From: Treponema maltophilum ATCC 51939
Lineage (GTDB): Bacteria > Spirochaetota > Spirochaetia > Treponematales > Treponemataceae
DNA: 64,000 nt
Direction of reading: 5' to 3'
NCBI RefSeq assembly: GCF_000413055.1
Contig: NZ_KE332518.1
Coordinates: forward strand, 1,861,583-1,925,582
Shown piece after piece: positions 24,113-31,129 of the stretch. Numbering within the stretch: position 1 is the stretch's first letter; every line of letters starts with the position of its first letter. A program made the position numbers and the translations under genes. A model generated the notes under the pieces. That model was not told where the DNA came from, did no database searches, and was given only the letters and a program-made list of their open reading frames with translations.

Positions 24113-24143
24113 TTGACAAAATGGGGGGGGGGGGGGGTAATAT
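24113..24143 (+). promoter_or_regulatory. Promoter with a 15-G tract in its spacer (phase-variation switch)
   Basis: A perfect -35 TTGACA (24113-24118) and a -10 TAATAT (24138-24143) are separated by 19 nt, of which 24123-24137 are 15 consecutive G. Loss of two G would restore the ideal 17-nt spacer. Homopolymer slippage here would change transcription of the downstream outer-membrane-type gene. In Treponema pallidum, poly-G tracts upstream of tpr genes and of an OmpW-like gene are known to act this way. Confidence 0.82.
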
Positions 24144-24183
24144 AAAAGAAAATCTTCGAAACACAAGAGGAGGAGCTTTAAAG

Positions 24184-24834
24184 ATGAAAAAGTTGTGTAC
24201 GGCTTTGGCAATATTCTTTTTTGCATTGCCGTTTTGTTTTGCGCAGAACTTTTTGCCGCGCGGAACATACCGTTCTCCTTTCGAAAACGGTATGAACGGT
24301 ATAACTGCCGAAAAGAAAAGCGGCGGCATAAAAGGCCGACGTTTTCTTACGCCGACCATAGGATACGCAAATCATCTCACATTGGGCAGCAGCAACAGCG
24401 CAAATACGCTTTTACTGGGCGCGGATTTTATGTATCGCAGAAATTCGGGCTTTACCCTTTGGTTCAATAACGCCCTTGTCGCAGGGCCTATTGATTATAC
24501 GGAGAGGGACTACTATGGTTTTAATATGTATAAAAGAACCGGGTTCATCGCCGGTTGGATGGGCGAGCTTCTTTTGGGATATTCAACAATACTGCAAAAT
24601 CATCAATTCGAATTCGGTGCAGGCTTGCAAACGGCGTATGCCTTTGGATCTGCAATGTTGGCGGAATTAGGCGCACTGGCTTTTCGATTTAATTATACGT
24701 ATTTTTTGAATGAAAAAACGGGAATAGCGGCTTGCATTACGGACGGAATCGGTCTCGGTATGATAGGAAGATCGGGCGGTTATGACTATATAAATGCCTT
24801 CAGCATAAAAGTCGGCCCCGTCTTTAAATTATAA
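24184..24834 (+). CDS. Small outer-membrane-type beta-barrel protein (hypothetical)
   Basis: This exported protein of 216 residues has a signal peptide over residues 1-20 ending FCFAQN. The mature part is rich in alternating hydrophobic and aromatic strands (TPTIGYANHLTLG, LLLGADFMYRR, FTLWFNNALV, HQFEFGAGLQTAY, ALAFRFNYTYFL) and ends in SIKVGPVFKL, as expected of a barrel of about eight strands. The start follows GGAGGAGC. Upstream codons through the G tract are not coding. It is probably co-transcribed with the next lipoprotein gene and is controlled by the poly-G promoter. No close family is recognised. Confidence 0.72.
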   Translation: MKKLCTALAIFFFALPFCFAQNFLPRGTYRSPFENGMNGITAEKKSGGIKGRRFLTPTIGYANHLTLGSSNSANTLLLGADFMYRRNSGFTLWFNNALVAGPIDYTERDYYGFNMYKRTGFIAGWMGELLLGYSTILQNHQFEFGAGLQTAYAFGSAMLAELGALAFRFNYTYFLNEKTGIAACITDGIGLGMIGRSGGYDYINAFSIKVGPVFKL

Positions 24835-24863: not shown

Positions 24864-25334
24864 ATGAAAAAATTTTTTAATGTATGTTTTGTTTCGGTTA
24901 TAGCCGCCTTGATTTTAGCGGCATGTACAAGCGTTTCGCCTACGGTAAGTGAAATAAACAGAATACGCCATGGCGAACCGGCTCTGCCGGAGATCCCGTA
25001 TGAAGCGTATACGGTTGTCGGCCGCGTAAGCGGTGAAAGTACCGTTTCAAACAGGCGGACATCGGTCGGCTTATTTGAAGGCGACACCGGAAATTACGGC
25101 AGCCTCGATACATTCGATGCAATTTATCTTAATATCGGCGAAAAAGCCGCTGTAGCTCCGCAAACACCCTTTGACGCGGCGCTTGCAAATGCCGTATATA
25201 AGATGATCGCGCAAGCGGACGAACTGCAAGCCGACGCCATTTTTTTTGTGCGCACAAAAACAAAAATTGCCTCTGAAAACGAAAAACAAACTGTTTCCGT
25301 CCAAATACGGGGAATTGCGGTAAAATTAAAGTAA
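24864..25334 (+). CDS. Hypothetical lipoprotein
   Basis: This lipoprotein of 156 residues has the lipobox LILAAC (cysteine at 21). The mature part has the pattern YEAYTVVGRVSGESTVSNRR and, near the end, ANAVYKMIAQADELQADAIFF, followed by a basic C-terminus. The last segment resembles small lipoproteins with a YbjQ/heavy-metal-associated-like fold, but this is only an impression. It lies 29 nt after the barrel-like gene and follows AAGGAGAAC, so the two probably share the poly-G promoter. Confidence 0.7.
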   Translation: MKKFFNVCFVSVIAALILAACTSVSPTVSEINRIRHGEPALPEIPYEAYTVVGRVSGESTVSNRRTSVGLFEGDTGNYGSLDTFDAIYLNIGEKAAVAPQTPFDAALANAVYKMIAQADELQADAIFFVRTKTKIASENEKQTVSVQIRGIAVKLK

Positions 25335-25368
25335 GCGAATCGTGCCTCTTTTACTTTAATATTTGATT

Positions 25369-25452
25369 AAGGGAACTGTAAAAAAACTGCAAGCCTATCG
25401 GCTTATTCTGTAAGGAAATTATTTTAAGAATCAGTTTTTGAACAGTTCCCTT
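25369..25452. terminator. Bidirectional terminator
   Basis: The arms AAGGGAACTGT (25369-25379) and ACAGTTCCCTT (25442-25452), with further pairing AAAAAACTG/CAGTTTTT inside, form a long stem between two convergent genes. Confidence 0.7.
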
Positions 25453-29827: not shown

Positions 29828-31129
29828 TTACGGAACCTCATCTATCTTATTTTCATCAACACCGCCAGCTATAAGTTTTTGTTTTAAGCCGCTGCCCGTT
29901 TTAACCTTGTATCTTGCCGCCGTACAGTTTGTAAAAGCGGAACTACCTATTTCAGTAAGCCGGGTACAGGATGAAAAATCAAAATTGCTTACCTTGTTAC
30001 AGTCCCGAAAAGCGTTCTTCTTAATTGCTGTAAGTCCCGAAGAAAAACGTACCTGCCCCGTCAACTCCGTACAGCCCTTAAAAGCATAATTATTGATTAC
30101 AAAAGACTGCGTACAGGCGGAAAAATCAAGACCCGTTATCCCCGTACAGCCGTTAAAAGCATCCACTCCAACCGTTTCAAGTTTTGCAGGTAAGCTTACC
30201 GTTCCCGTCAACCCCGTACAGACGGAAAAAGCACCACCGCCTATCGTTTTAAGACTTGCAGGTAAGTTCACACTCGTCAAACTTGTACAGCCGGAAAAAG
30301 CATAGGCGGCTATTTCTTCAAGCCCGTCCGAAAAGATAACCGATGTAACTTTCGGTATTCTGCATAACAACTTTGTCTTATCCTTAGTGTAGACGATATT
30401 GTCTATCGCGCATAAATGCGCACTTGCAGAATCCACCGTAAGGCTTGTAAGACCTGTACAGCCGTAAAAAGCGGAACTTGCAATCGTTTGAAGACTTGCG
30501 GGTAATTGCACTTGCGTTATCTGCGTACAGTTTGCAAAAGCGGCATAACCGATTTCAGTAAGCTGTGTACACTGCGAAAAATCAAACTTGTTTACCTTGT
30601 TACAGTCCTGAAAAGCGTTCTTCTTAATTGCTGTAAGTCCCGAAGAAAAACCTACCTGCCCCGTCAACTCCGTACAGCCGGCAAAAGCATAATCATTGAT
30701 TACAAAAGGCTGCGTACAGGCGGAAAAATCAAGACCCGTTATCCCCGTACAGCCGGCAAAAGCATACTCTCCAACCCTTTCAAGTTTTGCAGGTAAGCTT
30801 ACTGTTCCCGTCAAACCCGTACAGCCGGCAAAAGCACTGTTGCCTATCGTTTTAAGACTTGCAGGTAAGTTCACACTCGTCAAACTTGTACAGCCGGAAA
30901 AAGCATAGGCGGCTATTTCGGTAACTCCTGCGGGAACATTCAGTACGGTCGGGGGTGTTTCCTTCCAGCCTTTAAGTACACCGCCTTCGATCCACAAATT
31001 GGGATCGGGCCCGCTTTGTGCTCCCCCCGACGGCCCGCTGTCTATCTTTTGCGGGCAGCCCGTAAACAAAACTGCACCGGCAAACAAAATCGCCGTTATA
31101 ATTACGGCATATCTTTGTACGGTTTTCAT
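29828..31129 (-). CDS. BspA-like leucine-rich-repeat lipoprotein
   Basis: This surface lipoprotein of 433 residues has a lipobox FTGC (residues about 22-25). The rest is a chain of 23-residue repeats of the LRR_5 (BspA/TpLRR) type with cores such as AFSGCTSLTSVNLPASLKTIG and AFAGCTGLTG. The first and second halves are near-duplicates (protein text SGCTSLTSVNLPASLKTIG occurs twice), with a non-repeat insert around VDSASAHLCAIDNIVYTKDK. Proteins of this type in oral treponemes mediate adhesion and coaggregation. TAGGAGG precedes the ATG. Confidence 0.9.
   Translation of the reverse strand: MKTVQRYAVIITAILFAGAVLFTGCPQKIDSGPSGGAQSGPDPNLWIEGGVLKGWKETPPTVLNVPAGVTEIAAYAFSGCTSLTSVNLPASLKTIGNSAFAGCTGLTGTVSLPAKLERVGEYAFAGCTGITGLDFSACTQPFVINDYAFAGCTELTGQVGFSSGLTAIKKNAFQDCNKVNKFDFSQCTQLTEIGYAAFANCTQITQVQLPASLQTIASSAFYGCTGLTSLTVDSASAHLCAIDNIVYTKDKTKLLCRIPKVTSVIFSDGLEEIAAYAFSGCTSLTSVNLPASLKTIGGGAFSVCTGLTGTVSLPAKLETVGVDAFNGCTGITGLDFSACTQSFVINNYAFKGCTELTGQVRFSSGLTAIKKNAFRDCNKVSNFDFSSCTRLTEIGSSAFTNCTAARYKVKTGSGLKQKLIAGGVDENKIDEVP

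Follow-up and report, generated by a model that had tools for sequence, protein, structure and literature searches.

In Neisseria meningitidis, a G tract situated between the −35 and −10 elements of porA tunes the expression of this outer membrane protein (PMC3639595), and for the tp0126 promoter of Treponema pallidum peak transcription is reported (Giacani et al. 2015, as recounted in PMC7864442) at a tract length that sets the spacer to 17 nt. In this context, we examined a candidate promoter of the same kind in Treponema maltophilum ATCC 51939, located within a 64000-nucleotide stretch of contig NZ_KE332518.1, which is referred to as the window and whose coordinates are used below, all features of the locus lying on the forward strand. 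Direct read-out of the sequence revealed a perfect consensus −35 element, TTGACA (24113–24118), followed by AAAT (24119–24122), which is the non-G portion of the spacer, a G15 tract (24123–24137), which completes a spacer of 19 nt, and a −10 element, TAATAT (24138–24143), which directly abuts the tract. An earlier note on this DNA had placed TTGACA and TAATAT 19 nt apart with 15 G residues in between, and this proved to be exactly right. Both hexamers are intact and lie outside the tract, such that tract length sets the spacer, as in promoters of the porA/TP0126 type, and 13 G residues would give a spacer of 17 nt.

The G15 tract is the sole G- or C-run of at least eight residues in the window, and pattern searches of the whole 2.53-Mb genome returned just four G-runs of at least ten residues, which are 12, 14, 15 and 16 long. 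By our own arithmetic, assuming independent bases, the chance expectation for runs of 15 residues is approximately 0.002 over both strands of the genome, even before a precise fit between a perfect −35 element and a good −10 element is required. The promoter was not reported by a standard promoter scan allowing spacers of 16–18 nt, because its 19 nt spacer falls outside this range; such an outcome is in keeping with a promoter away from its optimum when the tract has its assembled length.

The three other long tracts of this genome are found in different settings. A C14 run (gene strand; L022:3219-3232, G000:C1:1116218-1116231) occurs close to the start of a gene for a SAM-methyltransferase within a sugar/glycan gene cluster. 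At the assembled length, the start codon that has a ribosome-binding site does not share the frame of the remainder of the gene, which on sequence grounds resembles a translational contingency gene that is switched off. A G12 run (L023:3461-3472, G000:C1:1501460-1501471) follows the start codon of a secreted, lipoprotein-like gene by a few codons. The assembled length leaves the frame of this gene open and shorter lengths break it, and here the reading frame points to a likely translational switch. Finally, a C16 run (gene strand; L024:3518-3533, G000:C1:1735517-1735532) is found at the extreme 3′ end of a gene for a GGDEF-EAL protein, where its length affects the C-terminal tail only.

Downstream of the G15 promoter, a ribosome-binding region, GAGGAGGAG (approximately 24167–24175), precedes a gene with an ATG start at 24184 and a stop codon ending at 24834, the end of the feature under study. 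It encodes a 216-amino-acid protein with an N-terminal signal peptide, which matches the Pfam family DUF2715 (PF10895) over residues 54–216 with 41.8 bits, compared with a curated cut-off of 22. An AlphaFold model, for which an alignment of five related sequences was the input, displayed eight strands and a mean pLDDT of 81, with high confidence from residue 50 onwards and values mostly above 90 in the barrel. The top structural match of this model was OmpW (8qxp; Z 16.9, rmsd 2.6, 153 aligned residues), followed by OprG (2x27; Z 16.2, rmsd 2.6, 159 aligned residues) and then narrowly by NspA and OmpA, and each of these four is a single eight-stranded outer membrane barrel. The predicted structure thus firmly assigns the protein to the eight-stranded outer membrane β-barrel fold class, with no one particular family being singled out.

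Beyond position 24834, and separated from the barrel stop codon by 29 nt, lies a gene (24864–25334) with its own ribosome-binding site, encoding a 156-amino-acid lipoprotein with the lipobox LAAC. Its C-terminus shows a weak match with YbjQ_1, a family that scores above the curated cut-off in the orthologous lipoprotein of genome G088. The barrel and lipoprotein genes are adjacent in all four genomes examined, i.e. that of the window, G088, G092 and G015. The earlier description of a signal-peptide-bearing, β-rich protein with a lipoprotein neighbour is therefore borne out both by the predicted eight-stranded barrel and by the retention of this neighbour beside it. It is likely that the lipoprotein gene is the second gene of an operon with the barrel gene; the two genes are presumably co-transcribed and their products presumably exposed at the surface. 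Just 3′ of the lipoprotein gene, at 25365–25450, we also noted an inverted repeat, GGGAACTGT...ACAGTTCCC, which is possibly the terminator of the operon or a repeat element. Elsewhere in the window (29828–31129) there is a lipoprotein-like gene with what appear by eye to be BspA-type leucine-rich repeats, and its repeat block is internally duplicated.

Orthologues of the barrel protein with 66–67% identity were found in Treponema socranskii subsp. paredis ATCC 35535 (G092) and in its sister genome G088. The string CTTGACAAAAT(G)nTAATATA is letter-identical in the window and in both of these genomes, including the −35 element, AAAT and the −10 element, while the flanks and the 5′ untranslated region have diverged. 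The number of G residues differs among these related species (one genome per species), being 15 in the window, nine in T. socranskii ATCC 35535 and 13 in G088, which gives spacers of 19, 13 and 17 nt respectively. This region is 92% identical between G088 and G092, yet their tracts differ by four G residues, and in a second orthologous pair, from genomes G079 and G077, the loci are 90% identical and the tracts have nine and 12 G residues. In the window's genome the gene upstream of the promoter is a divergent transporter gene, and in T. socranskii it is a co-directional sugar-nucleotide dehydratase gene; as the upstream gene thus differs in both kind and orientation, the promoter belongs to, and travels with, the barrel operon. 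A more distant orthologous operon in G015, whose barrel protein is 46% identical, retains TTGACA and has no G tract, and the operon can therefore do without the switch. Genome G001, of the same genus, yielded no relative of the barrel gene.

We then searched 274 Treponemataceae genomes with the pattern TTGACA-N(0-8)-G8-N(0-12)-TAnnnT, which was present in 85 of them, with 231 raw matches (our own sum, in which nested choices of −10 are counted). The reversed pattern, used as a control, gave seven matches in four genomes, and a control with C in place of G matched 23 genomes, many of them through TTGACATAC(C)8-9. Outside the family, the pattern was present in five of 23 genomes that represent other families within the order and in ten of 149 genomes of a phylum-wide draw, only two of which were outside the order. 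As sites with more than eight bases ahead of the run fall outside the pattern, the true number is probably larger. The sites listed comprise 123 distinct sites in 60 genomes, and in 104 of these the G-run touches the −10 element directly. Where the gap was at most one base (109 sites), the spacer measured 16.5 ± 2.0 nt, and the variance of this summed length, 4.2, was below that of every shuffle of tract and non-tract lengths (mean 7.7). When a single site per genome was taken, this constraint was weaker but persisted (median permutation p of 0.01). Longer tracts also tended to be accompanied by fewer other spacer bases, and this compensation was likewise weaker with one site per genome (median rho of −0.25). 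The earlier promoter reading of the locus thus gains support from two sides, namely the footprint in three genomes, in which −35, AAAT, the G-run and −10 are kept and only length varies, and the recurrence of the same arrangement across the Treponemataceae.

The start codon is typically 28–50 nt past the −10 element at the census sites, and few of the proteins encoded downstream match known families. A signal-peptide-like N-terminus was detected in 71 of the 87 downstream genes, 51 of which also have a lipobox, although paralogous lipoprotein families inside one genome are non-independent events in this count. The background was 12 of 40 for the genes of the window and 17 of 50 for other genes of the same loci, giving an excess with Fisher p values of approximately 4e-8 and 3e-8 respectively, where all calls were made with the same crude hydrophobicity rule of our own. 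In genomes G176 (L113–L123) and G034 (L137–L143), approximately ten promoter tracts per genome precede small lipoprotein genes, several of which share a common leader, and this suggests that promoter and signal peptide have spread jointly as a cassette. In addition, genomes G131, G274 and G276 contain repeated copies of TTGACATAC(C)8-9 followed at varying distance by a TAnnnT box, which may represent a further class of variable promoter, built on a C tract, in certain treponemes.

That this promoter grammar is common to many treponemes and favours genes for exported proteins is of more interest than the single locus. On balance, we favour the view that the Treponemataceae and some neighbouring families possess a lineage-wide repertoire of spacer-type poly-G promoters with one grammar (TTGACA, a few bases and G8–17 abutting TAnnnT), reaching approximately ten or more per genome in some species and serving mostly lipoproteins and outer membrane proteins, in which case random surface variation through slippage would be a general treponeme habit rather than something peculiar to the syphilis agent. 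A poly-G switch at a single locus is of a known type; in the open-licence literature, we found no description of treponeme-wide promoter tracts outside T. pallidum or of such a lineage-wide repertoire, and a homopolymer survey that includes Spirochaetales deals with tracts inside coding genes (PMC2831843).

For the locus itself, we consider it highly probable that the tract constitutes a spacer-length contingency promoter, i.e. a slippage switch of the porA/TP0126 type. Slipped-strand mispairing during replication would add or remove G residues in the tract that fills the gap between −35 and −10, the spacer would thereby pass through its 17 nt optimum (13 G), and transcription of the barrel–lipoprotein operon would be shifted up or down in a random, heritable and reversible manner; with the assembled 15 G (19 nt), the promoter would be weak or off. 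The anatomy of the promoter, the gene pair, the predicted barrel fold, the footprint and the differences in tract length between related species are established here, whereas slippage within the population and a response of RNA polymerase to spacer length are inferred. Because the grammar recurs across the Treponemataceae, mainly before genes for exported proteins, this locus probably belongs to a set of switchable surface genes that extends across the lineage. It is also conceivable that the tract works not by spacing but via the structure of the promoter DNA or through a regulator, an example being the CRP homologue examined at tprE/G/J, with length tuning binding or melting. Such behaviour has parallels in T. 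pallidum, where the tprL tract overlaps the −10 element and a spacing mechanism has been argued against, and where CRP (Tp0262) acts jointly with tract length at tprE/G/J (PMC7864442). At the present locus, however, both hexamers are outside the tract, and the spacer in the census is held at approximately 16–17 nt, tighter than two independent parts would give, and we regard this explanation as unlikely.

If the tract were an artefact of assembly, or an expansion that is passive or frozen, and had no effect on expression, the G015 orthologue that has no tract would be accommodated. Some sequencing methods are indeed error-prone at homopolymer lengths, and the assembled length of G15 may stem from an error in sequencing or in the consensus. 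Against this, the flanking hexamers are invariant in three genomes in which the surroundings have diverged, the G pattern is enriched over the reversed and C-tract patterns, and the genes downstream are biased to exported proteins, making a tract of no consequence very improbable. Equally, the tract could be imagined as a translational switch, given that an ATG at 24121–24123 opens a frame through it (MGGGGGNIKEN...). With 15 G this frame runs on into that of the barrel gene, giving an open reading frame at 24121–24834, and most other tract lengths would put the two out of register. This ATG, however, lacks a ribosome-binding site and falls within the promoter, 5′ of the point where transcription is likely to begin, whereas the ribosome-binding site and the signal-peptide ATG at 24184 have counterparts in the orthologues; a comparable over-extended frame of TP0126 was corrected (PMC7864442). 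As the orthologous frames through the tract at nine and 13 G end before or just at the gene, we disfavour a translational role, which we hold to be extremely unlikely.

T. pallidum, in which the promoter slippage of treponemes has been studied, is hard to grow and manipulate, and the same switch in a T. socranskii relative and in many treponemes would make its mechanism, rate and role in surface variation testable in more tractable species. The census grammar would, in addition, give a simple sequence rule with which to list switchable surface genes in any treponeme genome.

Among known systems, porA of N. meningitidis shares with the window locus a G tract between the −35 and −10 elements of an outer membrane protein gene (PMC3639595), although organism and protein are unrelated, and graded expression and immune escape are proven for porA, whereas for our locus switching is predicted. 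T. pallidum tprE/G/J and tprL also have poly-G tracts, with length effects, in the promoters of outer membrane protein genes (PMC7864442), and to this extent the comparison with tpr genes in the earlier note holds; it does not extend to mechanism at tprL, which differs in the overlap of tract and −10 and the case made against spacing mentioned above. DUF2715 (PF10895) barrels of T. pallidum belong to the same Pfam family as the barrel described here, but their nearby G-runs are elsewhere, several apparently inside or near coding sequence. The comparison of our locus with TP0126 and OmpW, also made in that note, stands for the promoter arrangement and mechanism (PMC7864442) and for the fold class, but not for the sequence family, which is DUF2715. 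TP0126 and the window protein are dissimilar, with no similarity detectable by hhalign (probability 0.1%, E 0.5), and in Pfam TP0126 matches OMP_b-brl below the cut-off and the window protein matches DUF2715 only; on both grounds we rejected the barrel protein as a homologue of TP0126 by sequence. The window locus also differs from tp0126 in its perfect TTGACA and in the lipoprotein gene that comes next. Nevertheless, in tp0126 (genome G020, presumed to be T. pallidum) a G-run likewise lies between −35 and −10 and abuts the −10 element, TAGAAT, and there too the promoter precedes a gene for a single-domain eight-stranded outer membrane barrel.
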